A stretch of 64,000 nt of DNA from Scolanthus callimorphus (Eukaryota; Cnidaria; Anthozoa; Actiniaria; Edwardsiidae). Location: contig CM066922.1 of the NCBI GenBank assembly GCA_033964015.1, forward strand, positions 26,096,961 through 26,160,960. Direction: 5' to 3'. The translations under genes were made by a program, and so were the position numbers. This document shows positions 3,608 to 64,000 of this stretch, piece after piece; position 1 is the first letter of the stretch, and each line of letters starts with the position of its first letter. A model generated the notes under the pieces. The model did not search any database. It was given only the letters and a program-made list of their open reading frames with translations, and was not told where the DNA came from.

Positions 3608-5228
3608 CTAAGATGATCTCATCAGGGGGCGGCATCCAAGAACCTCGACTTTACTGGGGGAAAATAAAATAAGGGGGAGGCGAGGGAAGGGGGTGTAAAA
3701 GAAGACACAGGCAGCAAATTGCTACGAATGAAAGTAAAAAATACATAATTGTACGAGGGAGAGCCGCGGCGGTATTCTGTAAAGTCGACACACGTTTCGA
3801 AATACTAGGAATTCCACAGTATCTCGCCCCGACGTGTGGTTTTTTTTTGTGCTTTCCATAATGAAATAAATGGTTATGAAGGTGTTACCTTTTCCGTTCA
3901 TTTTTGAAGTAGGTGTTTTTATGTTTTCTTTCAATTAAAGTCGCTGGAATACTCTGCGTGTATATATTTCGCACTCACTGTTGAATATACACTGCGTGCG
4001 AACTATGCCCTGGTGTCTACTGTTCTTTGCTAATGGGGGCGGCGCAAATGTCAGATTTATGGAATATGATAAAGACAAGATATGTTGCAGTTGTGACGGA
4101 GGATATGTGTGTAAGGCAACTCTGTTTCTTGAGTGAAAAAATGACATGTTCTAAATGTCACTGAAATTGGTTGACCAATCAGAGTAGAGGCCCGAATGAA
4201 GGTGAAAATGTGGAGGGGATGTATGGGTTTCCTGTGTTAAACGAAAATCGTGTGTGAGAGACTGGGCGCGAAAAGGTCTAAAAATAGAGCGTAAAGATTG
4301 CCGTATAGCGTTCAATGGTTCAATGCCTGAAAGATGAGCTTTCTTCACTGATCGCAGAAACATACACGGACTGTTGTCGGAAATCAACGTTGCTTGATAA
4401 TGTTTGCAAATCAACAGACCAGCTGAGTGTAAAATTTATACTAACGAACTTAGAAGTGCCGATTCGAGAGCCGGGTTATCGTGGTCGTGCAATTAATCTT
4501 AAAAGTTGCCTGTTGTAAAATGTATGAAGAGTACCATGGTCGCCGCATACATACACCGTTTAATGGAAAAAGGGTTGCAGAGCACATGGACTAATACATG
4601 GAGTCTGATGCCGTATAAATGCTGAGTAATGGACTATTTACAATTCACAATAATTCTGGTATGTATTAACAATATATCTAAGTTTTAACTGTGCAATTAA
4701 AGTCAGGCTGTAAGCTTAATGATTGTGTATGACTTGTTCCCTGTAGAGTTCCCGACGTCATGTTATAGTATCCTTGTTTTTGCTTCAAGAAATTATCCGT
4801 AATGGTCCGATGAATAACATCCCTTCAAGATCCATACTGTGTTTCGGGTGAAAGTGACCGTGGTGTCATAAATTGAATGGTGTGTCTGAGGAATGAACTG
4901 ATACCTTCTTTCCCTAAGAGGACGTAGGTTATTGTTGTAATATTTTAATCCCTTGTTTCTACTTGAAGTAATTATCCGCAAAGGTCTGATGAATTATAAC
5001 CCAGAAGATCCATATCGAATTTCGGGCGAAAGTGACCATAGTTGCAGTAATAAAGAGTTGTTTCTTGGGTTTAGCTGTTGGCTTCTGTTTTAAAGCTACA
5101 TTGTTGATAGTGCTGTCATATTTTTATGCTTGTATATTATAAGTATTGTGTAGTGAGTCTTCTGTCTCAGGCTTCATTGAATATGTTTTCATGTTCCTGG
5201 AAGCTTGTGATGTATTTGTATATATAAT
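3608..5228. other. Non-coding interior of outer element
   Basis: No convincing gene. Two direct repeats of about 100 bases (about 4770-4870 and 4950-5045) share the order CTTGTTT, AATTATCCG, GATGAAT and AAGATCCATA followed by TTTCGGG(T/C)GAAAGTGACC. Short ORFs here have no recognisable features. Confidence 0.6.
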
Positions 5229-5367
5229 AGGACTCCATGCTGTCCAATTAAGAAAAATTTGGATGATTCAGAGGAACTCCAAAATTGGACGAGGCCGCAG
5301 GCCGAGTCCAATTTGGAGTTCCGAGGAATCATCCATTTTTTTCTTAATTGGACAAACATGGAGTCCT
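5229..5367. repeat. Hairpin MITE
   Basis: Near-palindrome: 5231-5252 (GACTCCATGCTGTCCAATTAAG) is matched by the inverted 5343-5365, with a second arm pair, GGAACTCC and GGAGTTCC, around a GGCCGCAGGCC centre. Related half-arms (CTGTCCAATT) continue at 5405-5470. Function none apparent. Confidence 0.75.
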
Positions 5368-6507
5368 GTTATTTATTAATTATATAACATCCATGTTCAA
5401 ACCCAAACTGTCCAATTTTAGCGCGAACTGTCCAATTAGAGCGCGCGCGATCCAATTAAAAAATAATTGGACGATTCAAGAAAAATCGATCTGCCGGCAC
5501 AATGGGATTTCGAGCTGGCTATATAATTAAATGCAGAATGGCCCCTAAATTTGTGTGTATTTAGTGTTGCTGTGTGTCATTGTTAGCAGTGAATTTTGTG
5601 TGTACAAGTATATCTTTGAGATTTTTGTGGCGTGAGAAAGCAGTGAGGGGTGGATTGGGAAATATGTGAGATAGCTCTGGGTCTGTAGAGATGAGGTTCC
5701 AGTTAAGACGCAGTGTATTGCCCATATCATGTGTGTTTTGGTTGAATGGAATTACAAAGGGAAGGGGTTGTGAGTGTGGGGAATGTTTTGGCTTTTCTAC
5801 GTTTTGTGAAAGGAGTTGTGCTTGTGAGAACTGAGTGGCTTGTGGAAACATTGAGTGATATGTGTGTTAGGGTATCCCTGGAGAGCAGTATGCATCTGAG
5901 TTTGTTTAGACTATGTTGTAACTCTTCGTCATCAGTGATTATTGTTCTGTAGCGTAGGGCCTGGCTATATATAGTTCCCTTCTTACAGGATGGGGGGTGA
6001 TGAGAGGAGTGATGTAGGAGTAAGGTGCTGTCAGTGGGTTTAATGTAAAGTGAAGACTTGAGGTTTCCGTCAGAGGTGATATGTATGTTGGTGTCCAGAA
6101 AGTTTATTTTTGTGTTGGAGTAATCATTTGTGAATTTTATGGTCTTGTGAAATGAGTTAATGTGTGTAAGAAAGGTTTTGAGTGCTGTTTCGCCATGTGT
6201 CCAGATGAGGAAGATGTCGTCAATGTATCTTAGCCATGTTAGGGGTAGGAGGTGATTTGGTGCATGTCTGAGTATGTTTTCTTCCAAGTCAGCCATGAAA
6301 AGGTTTGCATAGGAAGGTGCCATGCGGGTTCCCATGGCTGTGCCTATAAGCTGGAGGTAGTGTTGGTTGTTGAATGAGAAATAGTTGTTGCGAAGTATAT
6401 AGTGTAGAAACTGGAGAAAGACCGGAAGTGGTGGGCGGGTGTGGATAGGGGTTTTGGAAATTGCATTCATTGCTGTTTTAATTCCCTCAGAGTGTGGGAT
6501 GTTTGTA

Positions 6508-7982
6508 GCGGAGCTCCTGCGCGGGCCGAAGGCCCGCGCAAGCGGAGCCCCATACCTAAGGGAAAAACGTATAGTATACTATCGAGTTGATTTTTGAACG
6601 TCACGGGCATTATGGATCATTTTGATGACGTCATTGATGACGTAAGGGCACGTGACTTCAGTGTAGACTTCCTCTTATGGTCTTTCAAACTTTGTCCAAG
6701 TTTGGCTTCGTTAGAAGCTACCCTTCGGGAGATATGATTTTTTCTTTATTTTTCTGGTATTAAACCTATAGCGTACGCCGTCCGTCCGTCGTCCGTCCGT
6801 CCGTCCGTGTACACATGGGAACCCTGTGGTATGCAAAGAAAAAATTATATCTCCTCAAGGGAACATGCAAAGACAACCATACTTGGGATATTTTGTCAAT
6901 GCCACAAGGGGGGGGGGGGTGCTGTAACACGGACACGTGATGTGACGTCATCGATGACGTCATCTATGCTTGAAAAATCAATATCTCGTGAAGGGAAGAC
7001 TCTAAGACAACCAAACTTGGGTAGTGTAGTCTAGGCCACCAGATGAGCGAAATGAGGTGGTCACGTGATATGACGTCATCGATGACGTCATCTATGCTTG
7101 AAAAATCAATATCTCGTGAAGGGAAGACTCTAAGACAACAAAACTTGGGTAGTGTAGTCTAGGCCACCAGATGAGCGAAATGAGATGGTGACGTGATATG
7201 ACGTCATCGATGACGTCATCTATGCTTGAAAATCAATATCTCGTGAAGGGAAGACTCTAAGACAACAAAACTTGGGTAGTGTAGTCTAGGCCACCAGATG
7301 AGCGAAATGAGGTGGTCACGTGATATGACGTCATCGATGACGTCATCTACGCTTGAAAAATGAATATCTCATGAAAGGAAGACTCTAAACCAACCAAACT
7401 TGGGTAATGTAATCCAGGTCACTAGATGAGCGAAATGAAGTGGTCACATGATGTGACGTCATCGATGACGTAATCTATGCTTGAAAAATCAATATCTCGT
7501 GAAGGGAAGACTCTAAAACAACCAAACTTTGGTACTGTAGTCTAGGTCACCAGATGAGCGACATGAGGTTGCCACGTGATGTGACGTCATCGATGACGTC
7601 ATCTATATTTGAAAAATCAATATCTCGTGAAGGGAAGACTCTAAAACAACCAAACTTGGGTAGTATAGTCTAGGTCACCAGATGAGTGAAATGAGGTGGT
7701 CTCGTGATATGACGTCAGCGATGATGTCATCTATGCTTGAAAAATTTATATCTCGTGAAGGGAAGACTCTAAAACAACCAAACTTTGGTTGTGTAGTCTA
7801 GGTCACTAGATGAGCGAAATGAAGTGGTCACGTGATATGACGTCATCGATGACGTCATCTATGCTTGAAAAATTAATATCTCGTGAAGGGAAGACTCTAA
7901 AGCAACCATGTAAACCATTTATTCACACAGAACATTTTATAACCAGGAGCTCCGCTTTTAGCCAGTGGCTAAATCTATATAT
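6508..7982. mobile_element. TA-flanked non-autonomous element carrying satellite
   Basis: Starts GCGGAGCTCC followed by a GC hairpin (GCGCGGGCCGAAGGCCCGCG) and ends with GGAGCTCCGC about 40 bases before the right edge. TA at 6506-6507 is repeated at 7983-7984, and joining the flanks restores the reading of the split reverse transcriptase, so the boundaries are firm. The inside (6838-7905) is about eight 130-bp units of the same family as 411-1595. No protein gene. TA duplication fits Tc1/mariner-type mobilisation but no transposase is seen. Confidence 0.85.
6838..7905. repeat. Satellite array, about 130-bp units
   Basis: About eight units with the same order of motifs as 411-1595 (CTCGTGAAGGGAAGACTCTAA, CACGTGATATGACGTCATCG). 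These copies carry ATGAGCGAAATGA where the left array has GAGGAGTGATGTC, so the two arrays are distinct subfamilies. Confidence 0.9.
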
Positions 7983-9726
7983 TATATAAGGAGGTTACGT
8001 CTATTGTGACAAGTAGAGAATGTGCTGGGAGTTGGGTGGGGATTTTGAAAACTTCGTTGAGGAAGTGTGTGGTGTCCTTTATATATGAGGGTATTGTAGG
8101 TACTAGTTGTTTAAGAAAGGTGTCAACGAAAATGGACAGGTTTTCTGTGGGAGAGTCACACCCTGAGATAGTAGGCCTTCCAGGGGTGTTTTGTTTGTGA
8201 ATTTTAGGGAGCATGTAAAAAAAGTGGTGTGCGAGGTGGTTGCTTGGGGGAGAGGAAAGTGTGTAGGTTCTCGTCAATATAGTCCTCCTGTAAAAGGGTG
8301 TCAAGGTAGGTTTGAATAGAGGTTGTAAGTTGTGGTATGTTGTCCCTTGACATCTCCCTGTAGTGCTGTGTGTTTGTTAGCTGTCTGTTTGCTTCATGAA
8401 GGTACTTGTCTGTCTGCCACAGAACTATAGCCCCACCCTTATCTGCTGGTTTTATGATAGTGTCAGGGAGTTGAGAAAGTTCTAGAAGGGCTTGTCTTTG
8501 ACTGTGTGTTAGGTTTGTATATTTGGGTGTTTGAGAAGTTGCATGGTGGAGTTTCAGTTCTGTCCAGAGGTTAGTGGTGTAGATCCGGAGGGTGGGGTTA
8601 GAAGGTATAGGGGGATTCCAGTCACTAGGGTTGTGAAAGGGTTGGCGTGTGAAAGGTTTGTTTCTGAAGTGGTAGCGAAGGAACATGTTGCGTCTGAATT
8701 GGAGATATGATTGTTTTAGGGCATTAGGGGTGTGTGTTTGGGGGTTGGCACAAACTTGAGTCCTTTGTGGAGGACCTCAATTTGTGGTTCTGAAAGTTTG
8801 TGTTTTGTAAGGTTAACTATTGCCCTTTTGTGTGTTGTGTGCTTGAGCTTGTGTATGGCATGTTTCTTACGTTTGTTTTTTCCACCCTTTGTTTTATGTC
8901 TGGTATTTGTGTATTGTTTTGTAAGTAATGTGAGTGTGCGTATATGTGGATTGTGGGCTTCTTGTCTAGTGTGAGAGGAGTTATCTTCTGCTGTTGCTAG
9001 TCATTGTGTGTTGGTCTTAGTTCTTTTTGGGTTTTGTTCAGGTTGCTGCATTTTTCTTTTAGGCTTGGTTATAAAGTTTGGGGGATGGGCTCTGTAGTTG
9101 CTGTAGTAATTGTGGTGGATGATCTTTTTGTGTCTCCATTGTTCTGATTTTTCATTTGAGGGCGGTGTATGTGGGGGGGTGGGGGGTATGACCAAGGTGG
9201 CGTATGGAATGTTTTTAGTAGGTCTGCTTGTTGTTTGTGGTATGTTATTGTTGCTTGTGTCATTTCCATTGCTGCTTTGTGGATGATGTCAGAATATGTG
9301 AAGGCTAAAGGTGGGGTATTGATGTTGGTATTGGAGTCAGGTTTACAAGTGTTGTTGGGGGTAGGTTTCTGTCCATGAAGTATTGTAGGTAGTGTGCCTG
9401 TTCCTCGTGATCCTGTACTCACGTGTGCTTGTTTACGTTAATGCCGAGGAGTGCTTGGTTTTGTTGTAAATTGGGGGTTGGTAGTAGAGCTTGCTTAATG
9501 ATGGGATGTGTTTTATAGTTGTTGTTGTTGTTTGGGTAAGGTGTGTCCTGTTTAGTAGTTGTTTCTTGTTGGTGTTGGGGTGGGTGTGTCCGTGGGTGGG
9601 TTTTCCATTGACAGGTGTAGGGGGAAGGCCTGGCTTAACATTGCTTGCTGTTGTGTATTTGTTGTTGTATAAGGAGAATGTGTACAGTTCCTTAGTTGTT
9701 CCTTCCAGGGTTTGGGAGGTGTGTGT

Positions 9727-10398
9727 AATCGGTCTTTTGTGCTTTCATCCTTGTCCTAGATGAGCTCATTTAGTTACTTTACATTTTGTTATTAGCATTC
9801 TGTTCCGTTTAGGTGCCCGCCCGCGCGCAGTGTTTCGGGGTTTACACACGCTATCCAACGTTCATATCTCATTACACTTCACCCTCGGGTTTCAACTTTA
9901 ATTTCAACATCCGCTTGACCTCAATTTACACTTGGGGCCTGAGCGTTTAGTCTTCTTAAACCACTCCACGGTCATTACCCTTTCGGCTCAGTCACAACTC
10001 TCGTTAACTTTCTCGGTCACCCTTCACACACTTACTGTTCTACGCGCACGCGATTAAACTTTCACTGCAACATTTGTATACTCAAACAGGCATTATCTAC
10101 TCTAACAAACATTCCTAGGCATAACTACACTGACATCTGTCTTTCCGTCATCTAAGCATAAAGGCTCCCCGCCCAACATAGCACTCCACCTTTGCTCTCT
10201 CGGTGTATCTTTTCACCCACATATCACTCTTCACTTCTATTTTACTGATAAAACTTCTCCACTCATCACGTTCCATTTTAGCTGGGAACTAGCGAATTCC
10301 CCCATGTTACCTCCAGATATGTCATATCACAACCACACCCCCATTTAGCATTGTAACGTATCACACTGACGTATAAGTAAAATCCCGCCAACACCGCA
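9727..10398 (-). repeat. Right TIR of outer element, inner part
   Basis: Reverse complement of about 2937-3607. It is cut at 10398 by the Polinton and resumes at 51083. Between this TIR and the broken reverse transcriptase, 9441-9726 holds nothing that I can call. Confidence 0.85.
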
Positions 10399-30197: not shown

Positions 30198-30682
30198 TAA
30201 ATTTTTTTTATTATCACACTCTTTTTTACATTTTTTTCTTACGAGATGCATAGCGCATCGAGGCGATCAGATCGCAAGCCTCTTGCAAAGGCTTGTTGCT
30301 TTTCGCATGAAAAGTCTTGGTGTTTTTGTGCATTTCCTTGAACAGCGGACCCACGTTCTCGGTGTAGCCAAACTTGTCTTGCACGGGTGACACGAGCATG
30401 TCGATCACCTTGTTGAGGCTCGGCAACATCTCGTTGCTAGCAAACGCTTTGAGCCGAATCAGACAGTCGAGATAATTGTGATGCACGTGTGCAAAATCCG
30501 ACATGAGCATCGCGATCGGTGGATGACCACCTTCTTCTGTTTCTTGAAATAGCGCCTTCTTCTTAAAAATCAAAGGTGAGCAAACAGCAATGTGTTTCTG
30601 GATCCCTTCGGGATGCCTTGGTTTGAGGTAATGCAATGTAAAAGAAGGAAAAACCAACACAGAAACGCAAGATTTGCCAACG

Positions 30683-30712
30683 TTTCGGACCTTTATTTCG
30701 GTCCTTCTTCAG
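30683..30712 (-). ncRNA. Hammerhead-like ribozyme core
   Basis: Minus strand reads CTGAAGA, a stem AGGACC / GGTCC around GAAATAAA, then GAAAC: the conserved CUGANGA-stem II-GAAA core of hammerheads, known in PLE terminal repeats. Stems I and III could not be fixed by eye. Confidence 0.45.
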
Positions 30713-30829
30713 GGCGACTAAAACCGTTACAGAAATCACGTATATATACACAAATGCGCGCGCGCACAAGGTTGCGCGCGACACAAACAAGATAGAGAAT
30801 ACGGGATAATAAAAGGGCTGAGTTCTAGA

Positions 30830-31592
30830 GTCCTCTCTGATATTCAGGCCATTTGGGACCATGGTTTTCAGTGTGTCCATCCAATAGCCCTCAACACCTG
30901 TGAGGTCTCTAGAGTTAGTAACCCGCTTGATGCATTTAATCTTCAGATCTTCTAGATTGTGTCCCGCGTTGCTTGTGTTGAAATGAGCAGCGACGGGGTT
31001 GGTATCCGCATATTTAACCCAGTTCTTAATAGTGCACTTATGTGTGCGAAAGCGTGCGTGTAGAGAGCAGCTCGTTTCCCCAACGTACTGCTTTTCGCAT
31101 CTCTGGCAGGTAATGAGGTACACAACGTTCTTCGTTTTGCAGTTGAGCTGGCTATTGATGTTATACTCTTTGCCGGTAGTGGTGCTGGAGAACGTGGCGC
31201 TCACATCCACATATGCACATGTTCCACACCTTTTGTCGCCGCACAGCTTCATGCCTCGCTCGGTTTCTAATGTCTCGGATGCCGGTAAGCGAGCTCGCAC
31301 CAGGTGGTCCCTCAGGTTGGGTGGGCGCCTGAATGCTACCATAGGTGGTTCTTGTAGCGCTGCGCGTATCCTGTCAGAGATGCAGGCGATGGGAAATGCG
31401 TCTCTGACAATTCTTGGGGCGTTACGTAGGAGTGGATGGTACGTCATGACTAGCGGAACTCTGTTGTTGTTACGCTGACGAGACCGCACCTGGGAACATC
31501 GGAACGACGGTTCTGTGAGACTCGTGCGATGCTCTGCAGTACAAGATCTTGTTTGTACCCTCTTGAAACTTGTACTGCAGAGCATACAAGTA
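30830..31592 (-). pseudogene. PLE GIY-YIG endonuclease, truncated
   Basis: Minus strand. It starts mid-protein: RRPPNLRDHLVRARLP marks the end of the RT region, then a Cys-containing linker (CGDKRCGTC) and GIY-YIG motifs VVYLIT ... YVGET with Arg (LHARFRTH) and Glu (GVEGYW) positions of the family. One base fewer near 30830 than the plus copy changes the end. No RT domain, so not autonomous. Confidence 0.8.
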
Positions 31593-32205
31593 ACGCCCCC
31601 TACGTAACGCCCCAATAATTGTCAGAGACGCATTTCCCATCGCCTGCATCTCTGACAGGATACGCGCAGCGCTACAAGAACCACCTATGGTAGCATTCAG
31701 GCGCCCACCCAACCTGAGGGACCACCTGGTGCGAGCTCGCTTACCGGCATCCGAGACATTAGAAACCGAGCGAGGCATGAAGCTGTGCGGCGACAAAAGG
31801 TGTGGAACATGTGCATATGTGGATGTGAGCGCCACGTTCTCCAGCACCACTACCGGCAAAGAGTATAACATCAATAGCCAGCTCAACTGCAAAACGAAGA
31901 ACGTTGTGTACCTCATTACCTGCCAGAGATGCGAAAAGCAGTACGTTGGGGAAACGAGCTGCTCTCTACACGCACGCTTTCGCACACATAAGTGCACTAT
32001 TAAGAACTGGGTTAAATATGCGGATACCAACCCCGTCGCTGCTCATTTCAACACAAGCAACGCGGGACACAATCTAGAAGATCTGAAGATTAAATGCATC
32101 AAGCGGGTTACTAACTCTAGAGACCTCACAGGTGTTGAGGGCTATTGGATGGACACACTGAAAACCATGGTCCCAAATGGCCTGAATATCAGAGAGGAAC
32201 TCTAG
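31593..32205 (+). pseudogene. PLE GIY-YIG endonuclease, truncated
   Basis: Plus-strand mirror of the preceding copy; the nuclease part is open to a stop at 32205 (ending NIREEL). It lacks the RT domain and a native start; the ATG at 31687 is internal. Near-identity with the minus copy says the two arrived together or very recently. Confidence 0.8.
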
Positions 32206-32317
32206 AACTCAGCCCTTTTATTATCCCGTATTCTCTATCTTGTTTGTGTCGCGCGCAACCTTGTGCGCGCGCGCATTTGTGTATATATACGTGATTTCTG
32301 TAACGGTTTTAGTCGCC

Positions 32318-32347
32318 CTGAAGAAGGACCGAAATAAAGGTCCGAAA
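32318..32347 (+). ncRNA. Hammerhead-like ribozyme core
   Basis: The same core as at 30683-30712, in the plus-strand PLE copy. Its conservation in both copies at the same distance from the 3' end fits a functional terminal-repeat element. Confidence 0.45.
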
Positions 32348-32806
32348 CGTTGGCAAATCTTGCGTTTCTGTGTTGGTTTTTCCTTCTTTTACATTGAAAT
32401 AGCGCCTCAAACGGGTGAAACCCCATCTGTGGTGGTGGTGGTGGTGGTGGTGGTGGTGGTGGTGGTGGTGGTGGCGGCGGCACCGCAGCCATGCCGCCTT
32501 GACCGTTTAACAGAAATTCCGTCGGTGGCGCCTGGTCGTTTAGCAAAAATTCCCACAAGGGATCTTTTTTTTCCTCCATCACAACAGTCGTCGTCTCCGG
32601 TGGTTTAGGTTTAGGTTTCTTTTTCTTTTTCTTTTTGTTGGGTTCTTCGTCGTCGAGCGGCAGCATTTGGACAAGTCCTTGGTGGCCACAGGACATTTTC
32701 GTTTTTTCGATTCCTCGTTGTTGTTGTTGAGAGGAGGAGGGCTAGTAGCCGTTACAGGTACGTCGCACATCATTTCTAGGGTTGTGATTTAAACGAGGTA
32801 ACCGGT

Positions 32807-37761: not shown

Positions 37762-38353
37762 GGTGGTGACGTGCTTTGATCACCAAGGATCTGTTCAGAT
37801 TGGGGGGATTCTCGATATGGAAGGATTTTTCATCCAGCGCCGCTTTTATCCCAAAGAAATTGGAATCATCACGGTGGAAGCTTGGCCAAATTATTCACCT
37901 AAACTACACCGCTATTTCGTCAGTTATCCGTTCCACTATTCGTCGCTTCGTCACAAGGACAAAAAATCATGCAACTATGTGAAAAACTTTATTCATGGAT
38001 TTCGCGTCGATGACCGCCCTCGTGGACACATCGCTCTTTCCCAAGTGCAGGCCAAAATCAGGCAAATTTACGACTACCACTGCAGCAAAGAATCACTGAT
38101 GGCTTACAAGGGAGGTCACGTGGAAAAAGATGTGCTCGACGCATGCGGAATCCCCAACTACAACCTCGAAACGCTAGGATGTCCTAAACCCGACGACGAT
38201 AAGTTTAACGAATACGCGTACAATCACCCATGGCCATTCAACAAAGAAACTAACACGTGCGGAAAACATCGTCCTTTAATCGACGGTAAAACACCACACT
38301 GCGCCATTAAAGAAGCCTGTTTCTTTTTTAATTGGTGTGCTTATCACAGTTAA
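37760..38353 (+). CDS. Exonuclease-like (DEDD/RNase H fold) small protein
   Basis: 197 codons from ATG 37760. The layout matches a short family that I recall from invertebrate and viral ORFs: DMEGF near residue 20 (motif I Asp/Glu), FHYSSLRHKDKKSCNYV, HGF near 75, a KGGHVEKDVL segment near 116, and a Cys/Pro GCPKPDD motif with Asp. These suggest a DnaQ-like 3'-5' exonuclease or RNase fold, but I have no alignment. The C-terminal 60 residues hold His/Cys that might bind zinc. Function may be nucleic-acid processing; inferred. Confidence 0.5.
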   Translation: MVVTCFDHQGSVQIGGILDMEGFFIQRRFYPKEIGIITVEAWPNYSPKLHRYFVSYPFHYSSLRHKDKKSCNYVKNFIHGFRVDDRPRGHIALSQVQAKIRQIYDYHCSKESLMAYKGGHVEKDVLDACGIPNYNLETLGCPKPDDDKFNEYAYNHPWPFNKETNTCGKHRPLIDGKTPHCAIKEACFFFNWCAYHS

Positions 38354-39934
38354 TTGACATTAAATAAAGCCGTTTCTCTACAACAACACGCGTGATGGTG
38401 ATCTTTACAATAGGCACGAATTACAAAATTGAGATAGAATTTACTACGAGGAATAAACAGCGCTTCCGCGAAAACCTCCTCACATTGATCGCTTTTCTCT
38501 ATAACCTCGCCAATTTCCTTAGCCACTTTCCAACACACATGAGATCGAAGTTCAAAAAGGGGTGGCACTGTTTCAAACGATTGTTTTAACAGAGAAAAAC
38601 ACGTTTTTTCAACATGCGGTTGCATCACACGAAACGCCGTAAAACACACCTTGTCGTGTTGTTCACCCATTTCGGCAGATACGTGATCTCTGAAATGAGG
38701 TATCGAAGCAAACATGAACAAGCACAATATCTCCTCGTGGGTAAACGACCCCGACGGCGGCAGTAAATTTAAACCTAGAACTGCAGTTAAAAACGCATCA
38801 TCCGTTACAACCTTTTCCACCCCTTTAGGAAGAAGCACATCTCTTTTGTGATTTACCTGACACACCTCGCCATTCTTCCTCACGTGCCCCACCACTTGAC
38901 AAAGATGATCTTCAAAACACCTCACGAAATGCTCAAAACGAGCCCCGTTGATCGTACGAAACAGCTTACCCTTTTCATTATGAACCCAAAACACGGCAGG
39001 TAATAAATGCTCAACCACAACCATCCAACGAGATCCATCCCATTCAACACAATCGCGAACCGCAACCGCCTCGAGAGGACACCGCGGAAATACGTTTTTG
39101 TGACGTCACATCCCGTGGCCAGCGGAGTTACTTTGCAAATTACACCCTTCGGTGCTTCCACACCAAAGGTTTGACCTCGAACGAAGGAGAGTTTCTGTGA
39201 GAGAGGTTTATCCGGACTAAATCCATACGATTTACAGGGAACATCACAATACAATCGAACCCATGGATTCCCCATATATCTTGTCGTGTTTCTTGCTTGC
39301 GCAGGATCCTATACACTCACCAGAGCGCCTGATTTATGGTAGGTAAACTGTGTATTTCGCAGACTCGTGCAATTCACCACAGCAATTTGATTTGTTTTGA
39401 TTGTTTTATTGATCTCGGAATGCAGAGATCTTTTGTGGCGTTCAATATCGATATTTGCAATTACCTATTTACAATATTGAGAGTTCTTTTGTCTGAATTA
39501 TTTCACAAGATTATGACAAAAGTTCAGTTTTGTCTTGAACGTACTCGAGCTCTCTTTGAATCTTTTATCAATTTTATCTGCTAGCTTGTGACAAAGAGCA
39601 GAAGAATAAGACGAATTTTGTACTAATTCAGCTTACTACATTGTAAGTCTTACTTTTATTTGATTATGTATAAAAACCTTCAATCCCGGGATCCGCTGGT
39701 ACTAGCGCTTTTATGGTAAGAAAAGAGTAAGAAATGATTTGGATTCAATTTAAATATCAGCCATCTCATGACAGTATAATAGAATAGAAACTTTATTGAT
39801 GTGTCAAGGAACCTATTAGCCTGGTCTAAGCCCATACTAATTAGGGGACAAAAAAAATAAAAATAAAATGTACAATTGAATCACTGTGACAAACTATTAG
39901 TGGCCTTTTAAAAGCACTGTTGCGGTCAATTCTA

Positions 39935-42900
39935 TTATTCTTCTCTTAACTTCTCTCTTTGGATAGCAGCCTTCATGTTAGCTACTTTACTTGTTATAAG
40001 ATCTTTGTAATGGCTAGACTGGTAGTAACCTTTAGATCTTTCTTTTCCAGGCTTCTTCAGCTGGTCAGGGTCGTCATCGCCATCCTGATCAGGGCCATCA
40101 GGCCTGTTACCCCCACCATCATGTGGACCTGCATCCAGCAAACCTTTATTCCAGCTGTCTGCAAGCTTCTCAACATCTTGAAGAACTTTTGGTAGACAAA
40201 CGGTGCAGCCTTTTGGGATTCCATTTACTGACATACATGCAAGATGCAATGTATGCCCACAAGACAGGCGAACTGTGTCTTTGACTTTGTCTTCAGTGGT
40301 GCAGTTTGGATGATCACAGTCAAGCAATGGGTTTGGTTCATTTCCTGGCCATCGGTATCCAAGTGGTAGACACTTGCGGGAAACATCTTTGTCAAAACTG
40401 GACAAATGATATGGGGATTTTCCATATGGTCTGCCAGCTCTGTTGAGTGGTCTTGGTTGTGTTTTAGATTTCCCAAGATTTGTCGAGACCCTCTCAAACA
40501 TTGACAGGATCACCTCAGATGAGAGACCTATTTTGAACAAAAATATTACAAAATTTACAAAACACCAGCCAAAACAAATTGAGAAATAAAGGAAGTAACA
40601 GGACAAAATTTTGCTTTTTATTCAACCCTCATCATGACAGCTGCAAAATATCTAGTTGAACATTGCTCCTCCTGTTATTTCTTTTACTTCTTCAGTAGAC
40701 ATTATACACCTTATTCCAAAATAGCGGAATGGCTCTTGTGGCCTTTTTCTCATGAAATTATTCTTTTCTTTCATATTCACTCGAGCACAAAGAAAAAAGA
40801 TAATTTCATGAGAGTGTGGCCAAAAGGGGCCAATGGAATAAGGTCGGTCATAAGGTGTATTACCCCTAGTGGCTTTTCTCGTACAGCTTCTAAGTTCAAG
40901 AAATCTAGTTAACAAATTCTACTACGAGTTCAAATTTTCTATGAGTCAATAGATAGTTAATCCCAAACAGCTTCCCTCAGTCTGGCATTTTACAGTTAAA
41001 CAACAGCTGAGTGACAACTGACAATCAAAGACCCGCAGGCCCGCTCCTTTTATACCGGAACTCCGTGTTTGAGCCCTTGCATTCAGCTTTCAGTTTTAAA
41101 TAATGATGATGATTTACCTGTCAAAAGCAGTAAGTCTTGGTCACTATAACCACGTTGATACTTAGGGACGTAAGACTGCTCAAACCCATTCTCAGATGTG
41201 GATCTTGCCAGCAACCTTGCAGTTTCTTGGATCTTTGCTGCTCCGTCAGTCTTTCTTATCCTGGATCTAATTCGTGAATGGAATACTTCCACCTTCTTGT
41301 CTGTTATCACTGAGCAGAGCTTCTCCTTTGCTTCATAATAGGCAGGGACACTTTTCTGTTGGTAGTCGGTATCACTGATCCAGGACAGGCTGGCTTTATT
41401 GTAATGATGTCTATCCATTGATATGAACATCATCGCCAAGCGCATCATTGACCGCTTCAGGTAACTAAAGTTCCCTCTCTTGACAATAACAGGATGGTGG
41501 AGATAGGCTAGTGGAACAAGCTCCTCAAACAAGTGGAACAAGCTGGCATACTCGACATCCTTGCACTGTCCAAAGGCATCTAGAACTTGGTGCCGTACCA
41601 TCAGCCACCCACAAAAGGCAAGGACTAGACAAATCGCTACTTTCTCAGGCTTGGGTTTTACATGTAGATGAGCCCTTTCTCCAAAGACCCCAGAGTAGAT
41701 TTCTTTGAATACATGGTGATAGTTCTGTACAACATCTTCAGAACTGTTTAGGTAAACATGGAAATGGCCAAGTTCAGGGATAAGTGATAGAACTGACTCA
41801 TTGACAGGGGCTTGACAGATTAACTTTTTCTGAAAGTACCAAGTTGGCCAGTCTCCAACTGTAGGGGCTAAGTGGTTATTCAGAAATTGCTTGAATTCTG
41901 GGAGAACATCAAAAATGTAGTTGTGACAGTAACTGTAGTCATCTTTACTGTGGAGGGACTTTTCCACCTCATCAATCAGAAGTGAAGACTGTAGGGTCTG
42001 ACATTCTGTCTGGTCTTCTCGTGAGTAGACTCTGCAATACAAACCAGAATTTGTGATGAACATGTATTGTGCATAACTTTTTTTTTTTGGGGGGGGGGGG
42101 GGGGCTTGGTTTTTATATTTTATAGTATTACTGTGACATCACAAGTAACTAAAAGTTATTTATGGTCAACATTTTCCAGCCCTCTGTCACAGTTTTCCCT
42201 ATATGGACTGACCTAAAGCCGGTAAATAACTTATTTAGTTTTTTTTTTTTCAACTCTAAAATTAGATTTTTTATTAAAAACATGCTTACACCAATGGTTA
42301 CCTTGACCTAGGTCAGAGATAGGAAAATAATGCCCTCGTGTGTGCGCTCTAAGAACCGATCAGAATGCAGAATTTGTTACTGTGCCCTCTAGGAAAAAAA
42401 TAATATTGTTCCATGCTTTGTACCTTAAATCTTTCAAAGCTTGTTGCATTGCTGTTGTATCCAGCAGCTTGAAGGCTGGGGGTAAACTCTCCAAGTAGGA
42501 TGATAAGGAGTAGCTTGGCCAGAACTCTGAAATAGCCTTAGTGACACACATGTTACTGATTCCACCTCTACAGAGCTGGGGCTGGCCACCAGGTACTGTT
42601 ACCATGATGTTCCTGTGAATGCTATTGGCTGGATGTGGGACTGCCTCCACTGGCTGGATATCAAGCAGTAATGTGGCCATGTGTACAGCATTTGTTGTGA
42701 CTCTCCCAGTAGGCATCTTTACAGTATTAATGTTGTGAAAATCGTCCACGGAGAGTATCTGGAATGATTTCTGTACAAAAAAAGAATGATCACACATGTT
42801 TGTGCTGTACATGCAATATGCACACTTTTTATCATATCAGTTTCATACCCAGGATTTTTTAGTGGGGGGGGGGGGTGTTCCACCACTATATTCCTGTGCC

Positions 42901-45069
42901 TACCCATAAATTTTAGGAGTAACACTATTCAGAATACACGAACACTACAAATAGGGGGGTTTCGGAACCCCTGGAATCCTTCTTGGTATGCCCCTGCATA
43001 TGGCTGAAATGGTATGCGTGCTCTGGTTGACTATGTGCAGTGTATAGGCCAGAGATTCCATGTATACCTTAGTGATTGCTTGAGTTGCCTTTTCTCTCAC
43101 TAGCTTGAGGTGATGTGCTGCAATTTCATGTTTCTTTGAAGTTTTTGTTCTGACTGCTCTTGAGAAGCCAAGCACTTTACCAAGTTCCATTCCGCCAGAG
43201 GAGAGCCCATGTAGGTCAAGGAAAATGGAGCTTTCATCCATGAATTCTCCATGCCTTTGATTCCTAAGGAAACCAAGAACCAGAGTATAATATTGCCCAC
43301 TGAAACCTCATATCAGAAGTATTGATGTTTTTTGTTCCTTTGAAATTGGATGTCCTTACATTTCCACAATCCACAGAGGGTTGTACTTGCTTTCACAATT
43401 TCAATATGGTTAAAACAAGCAGAGATAATATCAATATTGTCTAAGTTCCCTGTCTGAACCTAAATACATTTTAGACAATTTTAGTCATATTCTAGTTTGT
43501 TAACATGTAACATAAGAAGTAAATACCTGTAGAAAATTAATTGCCATATAAGAGCTGTTGTTCTCTTCTCCTGAAGTTGAGCTCTGGCCGTCCCATGCCT
43601 CTCTGAAAGAATACTTCCATTGATTGTTTTGAACAGAGAAGATCCAGATGGATTTGACAGTAAAAACTCTTTGAACTTGTCATGGCTGACCAACTCCTGT
43701 CGATTTGGATGCTTTTCCATGTGCTGGCTAAGGTTGTCCAGAAGCTGTGTGAAAGTTGGCTCTGTGAATCACACAATACTTGGTTTAAACAAAAATTATT
43801 CCAATATGATATGTGTTACTTGTAAAGTAAGGTGTGCAATTCAAACTGCTCACCATTTAGTCTTGCCAGCACTGTTTTCCAGGTTTCAGATTCCATCATA
43901 ACATCTCCTTCCTTGCCTTGAAGCACCTCCCCATTTCTTGTATGTACAAATGTCCAGTAGCTAGCAGCCTGATGGTGAGGAAAGACAGAAAAATGTAGGA
44001 CAACAGTGTGTGAACATGAGGGGATTAAAAAAATGTGCAATGTTTCACAAGTTAATGAAAACCCCTCTAAATAAAACTTTTAAAAATACAGTCAGTATTT
44101 TTCATTTAATTTCTGTACCTGTTCTTGACATTGTTGTGGTTTGTTGTTGTCTCCCTCTATGCTCTCGGGCTGTCCAACTACAATTTTCTGTTTGAAATGA
44201 AATATTTTGTATAATCATTAATTCCCTGAGATGAGCCATTAGCTTTTTGCATATGTAAAATATAGTTTAAAATAAAGTTAATTATAATGATAAAACTAAT
44301 TAAATAATTCATTAAATTTTCATACCTCTTGTGTGCATTGTTGTGGTTGCCCACTGTCTCCCTCTATGCTTTCCGGCTGCCCAACTGCTATTTTCTGTTA
44401 ATAGATGGAAATGTTTTTGTTTGTAAGACCTGATGTTGACAAGCTACTTGCATTTTTAAATAGGTCCAAATAATTATCATCGATTTATAGTTCTCTAGAA
44501 AGTCACGTAAAATTATTATTATTGTCCATTAATAAAGAGACACCTGTCTTTGTGTACTAGCTAATAATTATGTCAAAGTATGTAGGATCGTTTCCAATGT
44601 CTTGGTTACTCAATAAATACCAGGCTTTCACGAGAACTGATCTGAGTGTTTCGATCATACGATGAAAAAAAAAACATAACATAGAAATAAAATTTACCTT
44701 TCTTCGTTTTGGTAAGTGATCCGGGCCAAGAAGAAATCTGACTGGTGCCTCTGTATGGCATTTGTTGCACCATCGAGTACCAGGCTGGTAGGTATTGAGT
44801 TTCTGTCCTTCTGCATCAAATACATCCCAAAAACGTCGAGGGATTGGCTGGACACGGATGTTTGAGTGCCCCCATGTTGACGGGCACGAGCATGTCTTCT
44901 CGTTTTTTCGCCGAATTTCATCGAAATGGCGCTGACACACAAGGTCTCCTTCCTCCAATTCTCCAAATCTTCGAACTTCTTTTGATGGCCTTTTGAGTGA
45001 GCCTTTGCAAAACTCCGACGAAGTCCTAGTTTTGGACTTTGAGCACAACATTGCAACAAAATGTCGCAA
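39935..45069 (-). CDS. Multi-exon candidate transposase with RING-like end
   Basis: Nine exons with GT-AG borders and compatible phases: 45069-44698, 44394-44326, 44187-44119, 43968-43854, 43761-43527, 43263-43068, 42770-42424, 42031-41118, 40527-39935; 2,910 bases, 969 codons. Exon 1 has paired Cys/His (CQRHFDE, CSCPS, WCNKCH), likely zinc. Exons 2 and 3 are duplicates of 69 bases (GQPESIEGD). Exon 7 has VDDFHNINT, exon 8 GHFHVYLNS and KKVEVFHSRIRSR, patterns that might supply catalytic Asp/Glu. Exon 9 has a RING-like set, CDHPNC ... SCGHTLHLAC ... CTVC. Similar proteins are, to my recollection, multi-copy in cnidarians and uncharacterised. Transposase function is inferred from the TIR/TSD frame around it. 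Confidence 0.8.
40690..40865. repeat. Hairpin repeat in intron 8/3' region
   Basis: Inverted arms CACCTTATTCCA (about 40690) and TGGAATAAGGT (about 40832), and a second pair ATGAAATTATTCTTTT / AAAAGATAATTTCAT, form a long imperfect palindrome between exons 8 and 9. MITE-like; does not disturb the splice sites. Confidence 0.55.
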
Positions 45070-46241
45070 AACGTCAACAAACCTCGGATCGCTACGGGCG
45101 AAAATTCGTCATCCCTCGTAGTTTTCCTCACATTTTACACTGAGTGCAAAGTTTTTACAAGCTGTGCACAAGATATGTTTTGTTAAATATATCAAATAAA
45201 CTATTCCCAAAGAATAAAGACTAACTTTCAAGTTTTCGCCTTAACTTTCCAACTTTTGTTGACCTGTTTTGGTGCCGGGTGAAAACAATTCAAATTTGCC
45301 GGTGTTTTTAAAATATGCCGCTGACCAGCAAAATAGATGGTTCGCGCGCTCGAAAACGTATTTCCGCGGTGTCCCTCGAGAGCGGAAACACACACGGCGT
45401 GAAACTTAACCACACGGCTAGGACAAAAATCCTCAACACGGTTACACTGTCGAGTCACCTGCACGATCAGGCGCTTAAGCCACTTACCCAACCCCGAAAA
45501 ACGCCACGTTGACGACACATGACACAAACCATCGTACTGCACACAATACACCCAATGCCCCTGTCGTGATTCAAACGCCATGGCCACCCCATGCAAACAC
45601 TGAGGGGGAGTACCATAAAAACAATGATTGATTTCGTTGAACACCATCACCCCTCGTCTATCGTGCTGAACTGGCCACGAATCAAACACCTCGCCATACA
45701 CTTTAACGCACGCCTGACACACCGCTCTAGTGTGTTTGATCGGGGGTTGAGTTCTCAGGTAAAAATAATTTAACAGTTGACTATAATTAAAGTTACACTG
45801 AGTTAAATGCCAAGACGAAGTAAGCATCTTGAGGTAAAGATTATTCAGGTAATCTACATGACTAGCGTATTCGGGGTAAAATCCAAACAGATAAAACGCG
45901 TCTGTGACAGTCCATCCTTCGCGGTGACAAGGTCTTTGATACACCAAAAATTTAATCACCCCTTGTTGGGTAATCTCCAAGTGTGCTAGGCGGTTTAACC
46001 GACCGGTTCCTAGATCGTTGCGAGTCGCTTGCCATAACGCCATCTCATCGTAACGAAGCGAGGGGGACGACGAATGATACGAGCACACCACACGATCTTC
46101 ATTCTGAATCCTTCTAGAAATGACACATTCGCACTCATCCCCATCACAAAGACCCACCATACTATGTCGAGAATCGTACAGTCGATAACACACCACAAGG
46201 CTTTCGAGAAAATTACAACGCGTGCGCCACTCATAAGGCAT

Positions 46242-46383
46242 AGTGGTGTGGCGGCGGCGCCGCGTTCATGGCTTTTACTAATTACGAACTTGTAATTATA
46301 CCCCATCGGTTACAAAACAAAATTAAAGGTTACAAAAACGGCTATAAAAAAGAGGCGCGCAACTCGCTTTTTTTCAACCAACC
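46242..46383. promoter_or_regulatory. Divergent promoter
   Basis: TATAATT on the minus strand (about 46297) serves the split 529-codon gene, and GGCTATAAAAAAGAGG (about 46342) on the plus strand serves the gene starting at 46384. Spacing to ATG is about 40-55 bases in each case, as for other genes here. Confidence 0.55.
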
Positions 46384-58935: not shown

Positions 58936-59400
58936 AAATGATCGCAAAGCGCATCACAGGTTGCATCACAGGTTGCAAAGGGATGCGAGTGAATTTTCGA
59001 CGTCGAGAGGCATTTTCCCGCCATTTCCCGTGATTTCTGTGAAGCCCTACGTCACAACTTGGCGTGACGTCACAACATGGCGCGACAGGGGGAGGGGTGG
59101 ATGGCGCGCGCTCATGACGTCGCAACGACAGGTCTGCAAAACATCTACGCATGCGTACGAATGTGGCCGCGCGAGGCTTGGGGATGACAACAGCTTGTTG
59201 CAAAGAGGCGGTGTTTCAAAATTTGTCTGACACCTGCCAGATTTTTACCAAACCCAAAGTTTAAGGCAAACCCTGAGCCAGGTTTTTTATAGTAGATAAA
59301 ATATTACATTAGAAGGACCTGAACGTTTGCACACAATAGGTTTATTACTGAACAGTCAGTGAAAACCGCGAGTGAAGTCGTCGTAACATCGCGCGGCGTA

Positions 59401-62400
59401 ATGTTAAAGGGATCTACACGAGAGATGGCAATTTCCGTACGAGTTTTGTTGTGTGTTGCCGTGATTTTTGAGGTGTCCGCAGAAAAATCATGCTGGTTTT
59501 GTAAGAAAACAAGATCGGGAGAGGAGTGTAGAGGTCCGCTCAGGCGATTTTCAAGTGTCATGTCACGAACTTTCGCGGGGTTTGGCGGCAATCACGACAA
59601 GTGGGCGTGCACTCGACATTGGACACGAGCGTCACGGGAAGCAAATAGTTTCTGCTCATGTCCACTCACCACGCATTCAAACCAACTCGAAACAAAAGAA
59701 ATCCCGAAACGACTATATCCGTTGTTTGATCGTGTTGGCGAGACAATCCCTGACTACAAACCGGGGACGCGGTGGTGCAACAGGTGTGCCAAGACGGCTG
59801 ACGATACGTTTAATAAAGAACATGACTACATCCCACCTACCAAGGTATTGATGTCAAAAACAGTGTACTTGTAAAGTTCTCTCTCGGCTGTATTTATAAA
59901 ACATTTTATCATTACTTAACAAACAGAAAAGTAAACCAGAGAAAATAAAATAATTTATTAACAGAAAATTTATTAATTATTATTATTTTCTGACAGCTTC
60001 ATGTTACAATTGCTCAAAGTTCTAAAGCAATCGGTCTTTTTAAAATTATTCAACAAAATATTTCCCTCACAAAACATATTTACAATTTTAGAAGCCAATT
60101 AAAGTTACAGCAGCCATGACAGATGGAATGGATTCAAGTGACTATAGTCAGGTATATATTTTTTTTGTAAACAAAAAAAATCCCTGCAACATTTTCTAAA
60201 CAATCATACTATCTACATCCAATCAACCTAATGACGTCCTAACTCTATATATAAAACCTTCCCTAGATTTCAGAATACTTACTGTGCGACTACGTCAACC
60301 AGGCCATTTTGTAAGAAGTTAGCCAATCAGAAAGCAAGTACAGAACAAAGGATCTTGACTTTCTTGATATCTCAGGCATGCATCAAAATATTCACATTTC
60401 TCTCAAAATTTTGAAAAATTATAGCAAAAATCACTTCAAAACACTTAATTACTCATCTGCAAATGAAGTTCAGGTATTAAATTTCTTAGCATTTATTGAA
60501 TCTTTGAATGATAAACTTAATAGGATGGCCCAGTTGACGTAGTTGCACAGTAACAACTTAGTTGAATGTGAATTTTGTTTTATGCTGCCTGTCCAAATCA
60601 GTGGACAGGTATTCTGCAACAATTGCTCCAGGCCCTTTGTATTAGAAAAAGGTATAAACTGGAGTTGATTATGACAGATTGAAGGAACTACATGCTTACT
60701 ACTGTTGCTACTTCTCAGTTTGTGCTTTCTGTTTGTGATCCCACAGCAGAACCAAAGAACAGCAAATCATGAAACTGCAACAGATGAAAATAAAGAAAAT
60801 GAACATGCAAAAGAAACAGGTAAAAGCATACCCCACACAACAGCAGTCTACTCAATTTACTTTCAGTTAAGCACTTGGGCCTGTTTGTTATTTTCAGGTT
60901 ATATCTAGATAGGTCTAAATATTGAGAAGCTGACAATTTCAAGAGACCATAAAAAATATTTCATGTTTTCATAGAACCAAGTTTTGAAGAGCTGGTAGCC
61001 GAATTCCAACTCAAGTTATATCGCCAACAGGAGCAAGGAGAAAGCTCTTTATACTCACCACAGGAGATGGAGCAGTTTGCACCAAAGTTGTTCAATACAA
61101 TTGAAGCTGCCATCACTAGTTCTACGGACAAATCAAAAACAAGAGCTGAGCTACAAAAGAAAAGGACAGTAGGGCTTCTTCACACCCTTGCATACTTCAG
61201 GTAAACAATGGCTAAGATACTGTTGTGTTTTAAGTTCACATCCAGATTGATTTGTGCTGACAAAATTATTTATAACACTATTGTGCCATCGACTAAATGT
61301 TATGCTGGTAAAAAATAATGATAAGAAAAATGAAAATCGTACGCATGTTAAGAGAAACACATTGCAACATAAAAATATAACAAGTGTTTCTATTTGTGCA
61401 TAGATCCCAGAAAACCTCCAAGTTTGTTAAAGAAAGTGGTCTTCATGCTAACTTGTGTGGAATGTCTATGACAGGTATGATTTAATTTTCATAGATAGAC
61501 AGATAATTTAAAACTGAAAGTATGGTGCAAAAGGGGATAATGCTTGGCTATACAACTGTATCGTATTTGCATTAACCACGACATAACCATTTGAACAGGT
61601 ACAGTTTTAGCTTATGGTTATGTGACTGTGCTTTAACTCTTTGGCAGGTTTGTCATCTGGGCAAGTACAGGGTTACAGTGTACATCCCAGAACCCTACAC
61701 TACCTTAAAAAGCAGCTCTCCGGCGGCCATACTGACTATATCAATGGACAACTACAACAAGCCCAAAATGTAATTACAATGTCAATATTTTGATGATGAT
61801 TACACTCTTGTAAAAATACATGAACAAATGAAATCTTTACATTTGATACCATCCTGAAATGTTATAAATTATCACTTTTTGTAGTTGAATTGCTTGATTG
61901 TAAACATGCTGGATGACTACCATAACATACATACCCACAAAGTCCCAAACAAGCTGAGAACATCTAAGGCTGTACATATGGCATCAAGTTTGCTGGATAT
62001 CCAACCATCAATACCATCAGTCCCACGGCCACACAATGTTTCCCTTCATCGTCCTGTTACCATCCAAGTTAATGGAAGTACCAGACTCTGCTTGGGAGGC
62101 ATTGATGTCCATGTAGTTAGCTCAATCCTTGTAAAAGCACTGACAAATATGAGGGAACATTATATCTGTCAAGTCCCAAGCAATGCACAGCTCAATCCAA
62201 GATGTCTGAAGCAATCTCTGAAAGAATTCCGGTAAGGCATAAATTAATATTAACAAAAACATAATTTTATACTTTCAGGGAAAGCCTCATCTACATGGTA
62301 GTTCTTGCATAGCAGAGGTCTTTTTAAGGAAAACAAGGAGTAAATTCAAGAAAAAAGCTTATCCCCACCAAATAATAGAATAACATACACCATTCCACTG

Positions 62401-64000
62401 GGGTGGTCAAAACACCTCTTGTAGTTCCATTTTAAATTTGTTCTTAAAAATATTTTAATAACTTTCTTTTCAGAGCATACAAGAACCTTGACCACGGAGA
62501 ATTATGTCGGCTGGAAACATGTATGCTAGTAGATGAATTCGAACAGGATCTCAAAAGCAAGGAGAACTATCGTGAAGCTATCAAGCATGTTTTCAATCAA
62601 TGCCCTCAATACAAAGATTATCTCAAGTTCAACATGGTCCCATTCCCAGCAGATTGGCCAGGCTGGTATTTTCCAAAGAAAATAATCGCTCAAGGTCTTC
62701 TCCCTGAAATGGAATCCTTTATACCAGAGCAAGGCCCATTCCATGTCCACTTGAATGCAATGGAAAATGCTGTTCTCAAATTTAAATTTTTCTTTAACAA
62801 ACTGTACAGCAGTGTATTTGGAAGGACCCTAGCTAACAAACCCAAGCCGTTCTGTGTTTCCCTCTGTGTCACAAGTGCTCTTCTTGGTTGGTTAGTGGTT
62901 CGGGACAAGATTCTACAAAAGTTTGGCAATTGCAAAGCACATGAGTTTAATTGCATTTCCTATCTTCTGGAAGATGTCATTCCACTGTGCTTTTTTCAGT
63001 ACCACATATTCCGTAGTGGTGACTTTGAAAGTTATGAGAGACTCATGGGACAATTGGCTATCATGTTCATCTGCATGAAACGAAAGCACTACGATAAATC
63101 AACATTGTCTTTTCTTAGTGACTGCTCATATCAACAGCAAAATTTACCTGGATATTTTAGACTGAAGCAGAAGTTCTTGTCATTGATAACAGAGAAAAAA
63201 GTTGAAGTTTGGCACTCTGTTCTGCGCTCAAAGACAAATGACTTTGATGATGGAGACACAATTCAACAGAAGGCCAGAACACTGGATCATGTGGCTTCTT
63301 ATCAGAGTATATGGAGTACTTTGTACCAGGATATAAGAAAGGAGATGGAGAGTTGAACCTCTGGCTTATTGCAGGGAGGACAGCAGAGTTTATGGTGAAT
63401 CTGTTTCATGACATCGCAGGGAATTCTCATCAAAATATTGAAGTAAGTGATGGACAGGTGTAGAATAAGCTTCAACGTGTATGAATGACATGAATACATA
63501 ACAGAGTATGAAATCCAATGAAAAATAACCCCTATTCAATATGAGAAAAAGCTCCTCAACTCCCTGAGACTTGCAATTATTGTATTTGTTTTGATTTTTT
63601 ATAGGTTCCAAGAGAGTATTACCAAAATGGGAAACCAAAAGGCTGCCCCCTGTATCAGCTGCCAACATTTGATGAGGCCATAGGCACAACAAGTTTCCCT
63701 CTTGGATATGCACATGACAGTTATAGCCCTGGTTTGGAACCTAATCCTAATGTGTACTGTGATCTGCCAACCTGCAATAATAACTCAACTGATGGTTTGA
63801 TTCGGTTTGCATGCTTCCACATGTTCCACTCTTCTTGTATCAACTCTTCATGTGTTATTTGTGAGGAGCCTCTTAAAGAAACTGTCAAGACCTTAGCAGC
63901 AAGTTTCAACAGTGGTTTGTTGACAGATTCTGGGCACACTGGCTCTATCCCTGATAATGATGTAAGTGAAGATGATGAGCTTCCATCGACAAGCATGAGT
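59401..64000 (+). CDS. Paralogue of the nine-exon transposon gene (partial)
   Basis: Exons: about 59401-59844, 60747-60819, 60975-61200, 61404-61474, 61648-61769, 61885-62231, 62474-63442, then 63605 running past the window end. Splice phases correspond to the transposon gene; the 347-base exon (61885-62231) equals its exon 7 in length. Matching motifs: DYKPGTRWCNRC, DDYHNIHT, GPFHVHLN, KKVEVWHSVLR, and RING-like CDLPTC ... CFHMFHSSC ... CVIC. One frame change near 63290-63310 in the seventh exon. Exons 2/3 are a single unduplicated exon here, while exon 6 is split into two. ATG 59425 is an alternative start. It may be a host gene or another transposon copy; the right edge is not visible. Confidence 0.7.

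Follow-up and report, generated by a model that had tools for sequence, protein, structure and literature searches.

A DNA transposon with 9-bp target site duplications inside a sea anemone Polinton, probably representing an unnamed superfamily

The analysed window, a stretch of 64,000 nucleotides from contig CM066922.1 of the sea anemone Scolanthus callimorphus (GCA_033964015.1), contains a Polinton in which a minus-strand open reading frame (ORF) is interrupted by a second mobile element carrying a spliced gene of its own. This element spans positions 39078..45373 (6,296 bp, with the gene on the minus strand) and is delimited by 21-bp terminal inverted repeats (TIRs) at 39078..39098 (plus strand) and 45353..45373 (minus strand), which are identical as inverted repeats (GACACCGCGGAAATACGTTTT). 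Directly outside them lie the two copies of a 9-bp target site duplication (TSD), CCTCGAGAG, at 39069..39077 and 45374..45382, so that the coordinates bear out the perfect TIRs, the duplication and the length reported in an earlier note made from the letters of this DNA. The analyses reported here suggest that the insertion is probably an autonomous TIR DNA transposon, most likely of the DDE/RNase H type, belonging to a superfamily for which neither a Pfam or NCBIfam model nor a description in the literature within the scope of our searches, which did not extend to Repbase, was found.

The Polinton ORF continues on both sides of the insertion, with its downstream piece at 38350..39068 and its upstream piece at 45383..46265 (both on the minus strand and without a Pfam match), and a single frame is kept across the reconstructed empty site. 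The 129-bp sequence joining the two flanks presented contiguous matches at 21 other places in the genome, with 92-96% identity; these matches cover the join and need not each lie in a whole Polinton. In all four of the empty sites that were fetched, CCTCGAGAG is present once. Uninterrupted targets with a single copy of this sequence constitute direct evidence for insertion with a 9-bp duplication, and uphold the previous proposal that the element had cut a Polinton ORF while preserving its frame. The window copy of the target also lacks 6 bp approximately 17 bp from the target site, a difference unrelated to the insertion.

The gene of the element consists of nine exons separated by GT-AG introns and encodes 963 codons plus a stop codon, without internal stops. 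An intact gene of nine exons had been proposed before and stands, with a length of 963 codons replacing the 969 given then, a difference that falls within splice-site choice. All exons lie on the minus strand. Exon 1 (44698..45051) encodes an N-terminal Cys/His region ending in PGTRWCxxC, which is conserved in the acorn worm, Oculina and Nematostella homologues (P0004, P0005 and P0007) and in two sister families (2 and 3) of the same genome described below, in agreement with the N-terminal zinc region of the earlier note. Exon 2 (44326..44394), which is short and repeat-like, and exon 3 (44119..44187), a near-repeat of exon 2, are defined by their splice sites only, and exon 4 (43854..43968) by the spliced gene model. 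The junction between exons 5 (43527..43761) and 6 (43068..43263) agrees with an Actinostola gene model (P0002), and that between exons 7 and 8 is likewise supported by Actinostola models (P0001/P0002). Exon 7 (42424..42770) contains the motif DDFHNI, with two candidates for a first catalytic Asp, D355 (42744-42746) and D356 (42741-42743). Exon 8 (41118..42031) encompasses GDWPTW, with a candidate second Asp (D522, 41851-41853), followed by GxFH..LN, RHHYNK and KVEVFHS, which contains a candidate final Glu (E710, 41287-41289). Both DDFHNI and VEVFHS, noted originally as DDF/DDY-HNI and VE-(F/W)-HS, are conserved in the alignment described below. Exon 9 (39935..40527) encodes a Cys/His region that is likely RING-like, an acidic tail and the stop codon. 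Apart from the two Polinton ORFs that run into its left and right ends, the element contains no other ORF of at least 150 codons on either strand.

Searching the 597-Mb host assembly with the TIR, allowing up to two mismatches, identified 156 matches, and none for the reversed pattern. From about 100 listed places among these 156, a sample of 20 loci with TIR pairs less than 10 kb apart was fetched; at least five further pairs lie more than 10 kb apart and thus outside this sample. An exact 9-bp TSD was found at 20/20 loci and an exact 8- or 10-bp TSD at 0/20. The contrast between 156 and 0 matches, together with the uniformity of the TSDs, places these features beyond chance, and further copies with the same TIRs and 9-bp duplications, for which the earlier note had proposed a search, are present in the genome. 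Flanks are common to L015 and L026 and to L016 and L017, so the sample represents about 18 independent insertions. Copies spanning the whole window element occupy three loci (L018, 96.9% identity; L021, 98.9%; L023, 98.7%), a decayed copy one (L025), and a sister subfamily with 68-69% identity in the main core exon two (L015 and L026).

The remaining 14 loci (L009-L014, L016, L017, L019, L020, L022, L024, L027 and L028) share only their ends with the window element: the terminal 48 bp in 11 of them, and 44-46 bp at one end and about 230 bp at the other in L016, L017 and L028. The length of these elements ranges from 3.8 to 7.9 kb, most of them measuring about 4.5 kb; they are related to each other among the matches listed, and yielded no transposase match (tblastn, E 1e-5). 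An 872-aa ORF in L011 corresponds to a nested LINE-like reverse transcriptase. Separately, many single matches to a TIR variant, GGCACCGCGGAAATACGTTTT, had no partner among the matches listed, pointing to a further family with a different other end.

Six-frame searches of the genome with the window protein returned at least 64 matches and revealed, beyond close copies, families at about 37-42% protein identity. A member of one of these, family 2, starts within the window itself (59127..65683, plus strand, 6,557 bp, of which the window holds the part up to 64000), with a 29-bp TIR (GACAGGTCTGC...) and the TSD CGTCGCAAC at 59118-59126. On the plus strand it presents an ORF with DDYHNI (61885..62232), a core ORF with ADWPGW and KVEVWHS (62448..63353), in which the frame breaks near the end (about 63.3 kb) relative to copy L057, and a RING-like region (63605..64000); a further C-terminal domain, discussed below, lies beyond the window end. 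The family-2 TIR is GACAGGTCTGCAAAACATCTACGCATGCG, and the element at 59127-65683 was the only match of a combined TIR-plus-TSD scan, the other loci having been chosen by exact TIR pairs; an exact 9-bp TSD was observed at two of three loci (this element and C135). Family 3, missed by the first TIR scan and detected with relaxed ones, has the ends G(A/G)CACCGCTGCCAAACGT and exact 9-bp TSDs at 9/9 loci with paired exact ends, and its copies L043-L049 are 98.3-99.5% identical. With their different TIRs, the three families share the length of the TSD and the terminal 5'-G(A/G)CA. Across them, 31 of the 32 loci tested have an exact 9-bp TSD, without counting the window copy.

Homologues of the 963-aa protein were identified in a large protein database for Actinostola (P0001, P0002 and P0006), Exaiptasia (P0003), Nematostella (P0007) and Oculina (P0005), and for the acorn worm Ptychodera flava (P0004, full length, 33% identity). 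The named homologues found are hence anthozoan with the addition of Ptychodera; twelve unnamed homologous pieces (P0008-P0019) span 262-336 aa. Each of the three protein-database searches scored about 8000 word-sharing candidates, and the range of homologues may therefore be wider. Among viral contigs, 540 stretches matching the pattern included no relatives. In Exaiptasia P0003, a relative of the transposase has its N-terminus replaced by a QRICH1 domain, making it either a fusion gene model or a candidate for domestication.

An alignment of 17 sequences revealed that the candidate catalytic residues are invariant in the rows that have a letter at the position (D355 and D356, 10/10; D522, 16/16; E710, 14/14). 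Other acidic residues, including D383, E483, E622 and D682, are likewise invariant, and the D355/D356-D522-E710 triad is therefore put forward as a proposal. Exon 8 is under strong purifying selection between subfamilies, with proportions of synonymous (pS) and nonsynonymous (pN) differences of 0.87 and 0.18 in the comparison with L015; the frameshifted exon 8 of L018 (ratio of nonsynonymous to synonymous rates, dN/dS, 0.62) was excluded because the comparison is out of frame. In the phylogenetic tree, families of the host are mixed with sequences from other species. Nematostella is the partner of family 3 (support 0.92) and Oculina that of family 2 (0.93), whereas the window element joins L041 (1.00), and the next sequences to join are Actinostola and two unnamed ones (0.79).

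Two regions of these proteins resemble domains involved in ubiquitin metabolism. The C-terminal Cys/His region proposed earlier as RING-like is indeed conserved, and its assignment to RING is likely, with the best Pfam RING score below the cut-off (24.1 versus 27.3 bits, for zf_RING_Vps8 in P0003). Among PDB chains, an E3 ligase comes closest to the window protein (E 0.1). A further C-terminal domain (located, for example, at L059:455-874) is present in families 2 and 3, Ptychodera P0004 and Oculina P0005, where Gln, Cys and Asp-Ser-His are invariant across four sequences. We assign it to the VTD-like (herpes tegument-like) deubiquitinases on account of this shared catalytic pattern, the individual matches being weak: Herpes_teg_N matched one family-2 piece at E 0.015 and neither P0004 nor P0005 as a whole, and the sole PDB match to a profile of the domain was the deubiquitinase 8adb (E 0.029, no individual stretch reaching significance). 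A VTD-like domain is lacking in the window element, and since the domain is present in Ptychodera, the lineage of the element appears to have lost it.

Comparisons with known transposase families returned little. The window protein matched nothing in Pfam better than weak RING models, and 29 aligned members or exon pieces matched no transposase model in Pfam (E 10) or NCBIfam (E 1), so that, as the earlier note had surmised, no named superfamily is recognized, with MULE, P and KDZ matches absent from both scans. NCBIfam produced only scattered weak matches for the 29 members (best E 0.0076). RuvC is an RNase H-type nuclease; a RuvC match in one of the 29 members (E 0.051) was taken as chance. 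Searched by sequence against PDB, a profile of the core returned no matches. As a positive control, the same genome presented 33 places matching MULE, 27 matching KDZ, 53 matching the TNP-like RNase H domain and at least 103 matching DUF6589; none of the places found with these four models overlaps matches to the window protein or elements with known ends. On contig C9, a DUF6589 match is situated some 5 kb away from a distant member of the new family, which is outside the set of elements with known ends. In hhalign comparisons, two halves of the new family matched each other at E 4e-118, and the probabilities against MULE, KDZ, P-like and DUF6589 comparators (11 MULE, 4 KDZ, 4 P-like short pieces and 10 DUF6589 pieces) were 0.1-0.5%. 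Literature searches recognized no description of this family, with Repbase, most subscription journals and bioRxiv lying outside their scope.

Taken together, the TIRs, the TSDs of fixed length, the intact transposase-like gene, the dispersed copies and the empty sites are those of a TIR DNA transposon, and the element is best read as a member of an unnamed DNA transposon superfamily and not as a mobile element of a categorically different type. The fixed TSDs and TIRs, together with the invariant acidic residues, fit a DDE transposase making a 9-bp staggered cut. In the proposed mechanism, the N-terminal Cys/His region would bind the 5'-G(A/G)CA ends and the 963-aa protein, acting as a DDE/RNase H-type transposase, would free the element, using a putative triad of D355 or D356, D522 and E710, the last two of which would be separated by a long insert. 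It would then join the 3' ends of the element to two target phosphates 9 bp apart, and gap repair by the host would leave the 9-bp TSD. The RING-like region, and the VTD-type domain in the sister families, suggest that these transposons act on ubiquitin, and might serve, for instance, to protect the transposase. A fuller formulation, which we favor by slightly better than an even chance, is that of a new superfamily of eukaryotic cut-and-paste transposons, found in anthozoans and one hemichordate, with 5'-G(A/G)CA ends, TSDs of strictly 9 bp and a D-D-E transposase bearing DD(F/Y)HNI, (G/A)DWPxW and KVExxHS, in which a single ancestral protein united the transposase with a ubiquitin-ligase-like region of the RING type and with a VTD deubiquitinase, the last being subsequently lost in the window lineage.

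Several points weigh against this interpretation. The RNase H fold and the triad are read solely from residue conservation, the cut-and-paste mode, as opposed to copying, is an assumption, and one family-2 locus (C293) lacks a TSD. Since most matches above E 0.1 are discarded by the filters of HMMER, the negative family scans leave room for a deep kinship with a known group. The hhalign comparators are small and partly incomplete and the method nowhere links MULE to P-like either; the lack of a link to the four families is therefore weak evidence. Finally, a divergent MULE-like element would also be expected to have a TSD of 9 bp and to show GxFH at the position of C/DxxH, and some MULE TIRs measure 20-38 bp (PMC6446971).

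The main rival explanation follows from this last point: the element could be a very divergent MULE, or a member of the wider group formed by MuDR, hAT, P, Kolobok and Dada, to which the C/DxxH motif is common (PMC10045372), with the motif degenerated to GxFH. The TSD lies inside the 8-11 bp range given for MULEs, with Rehavkus at 9 bp, TIRs of 20-38 bp are those of TvMULE, and a RING zinc finger ORF has been reported in one Ghost MULE (PMC6446971). The GxFHV.LN segment between D522 and E710 is located where C/DxxH sits, making a deep relation to that group plausible. Nevertheless, the position of the C/D residue is occupied by G in 16/16 rows, and the MULE model, with its 33 places in this genome, matches neither the window protein nor any of the 29 members or pieces, and finds none of these elements; the hhalign probability of 0.5% points the same way, as a weak test. 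We therefore regard this alternative as unlikely, at a level that still merits attention. Motif likeness also invites a comparison with DUF6589. These proteins, which form an abundant transposase-like family of this genome that has yet to be described, carry GDQLT and (G/E)xxH motifs at places similar to those of the window protein's motifs; GDQLT and EDWH are seen in L075. Profile comparison does not support the likeness (hhalign 0.2-0.3%, with a comparator lacking the GDQLT part), PF20231 matches neither the window protein nor the 29 members or pieces, and the DUF6589 sequences here mostly end in DL..EHxN, not VExxHS; we consider common membership improbable. As an observation of its own, many of the DUF6589 matches lie in long open frames and several have identical scores (L062-L076), and these proteins are possibly another undescribed transposon group.

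A different kind of alternative holds that the 963-aa protein is a passenger and that another transposase moves the element in trans. The 14 gene-less loci out of 20 have the same ends, and must accordingly have been moved in trans by something. Against a passenger role, relatives of the protein occur in each of three families with different TIRs, its core is under purifying selection and the element offers no other ORF of 150 codons or more beyond the entering Polinton frames, so that we assign this explanation the lowest likelihood of the three and retain an unnamed superfamily, with the 963-aa protein as its transposase, as the preferred reading.

The Polinton setting described in the earlier note is confirmed by TIRs at about 1.6-2.9 plus 10.4-10.8 kb and at 50.6-52.4 kb, and by genes for a type B DNA polymerase, an integrase with a chromodomain and an adenovirus-type protease, the match to an A32-type ATPase remaining below the cut-off (18.9 versus 22.8 bits). 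Its left TIR is split by a 7.5-kb insertion (2937-10398) with arms of 511 nt that are 100% complementary (2937-3447 and 9888-10398) and a further 165 nt at 99%; this insertion is probably another mobile element with long TIRs. A near-perfect palindrome at 30629-32401, whose arms measure about 800 nt (at 100% over 600 nt and at 99% over 203 nt) and whose centre spans 168 nt, overlaps the GIY-YIG ORF of the Polinton. Elsewhere in the genome, seven of the 21 places matching the flank join form a tandem array on one strand (C1:20596686-20631267) with a spacing of about 5.74 kb and a Polinton-related unit.

The intact gene, the clean ends and the copies at 97-99% identity make the window copy directly testable as a transposition system. 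Repbase distinguishes 23 (PMC10045372) or 24 (PMC12730594) superfamilies of DNA transposons, and with only about two dozen of them the addition of another would be noteworthy. VTD deubiquitinases are described as having an Asp-x-His motif, a transposon-borne spread and cnidarian fusions to transposon-associated domains (PMC9741609). The combination of RING-like and VTD-like domains would provide a TIR-transposon carrier for such fused genes in corals and anemones, and would allow tests of the reason for which one mobile element carries both ubiquitin-ligase-like and deubiquitinase-like domains.

Among known systems, MULE/MuDR elements are the closest in outline, sharing TSDs of about 9 bp, TIRs, zinc regions and a His motif that is conserved in the interval from the second Asp to the final Glu; the new family differs in the lack of matches to PF10551 or other MULE models in Pfam and NCBIfam, in GxFH in place of C/DxxH, in the near-uniform 9-bp TSD of its three families and in its nine exons. 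KDZ elements have a large intron-rich transposase and TIRs, as does the window element, and P elements, also with TIRs, generate 8-bp TSDs; both were rejected by model, the new family matching neither PF18758 (KDZ) nor PF21787 or other P-element models. The TSD range of hAT elements is 5-8 bp, against the 9 bp observed here, and no Pfam hAT model is matched. A TSD of 8 bp, not 9 bp, is likewise given for the KDZ element Zisupton-1_PGr (PMC12730594), and the P superfamily is reported to share C/DxxH (PMC10045372). The C-terminal domain of families 2 and 3, P0004 and P0005 resembles VTD deubiquitinases in its invariant Gln, Cys and Asp-Ser-His, with the scores below significance; the main transposon vehicle of that family, according to PMC9741609, is the Helitron, whereas here it is a TIR element.

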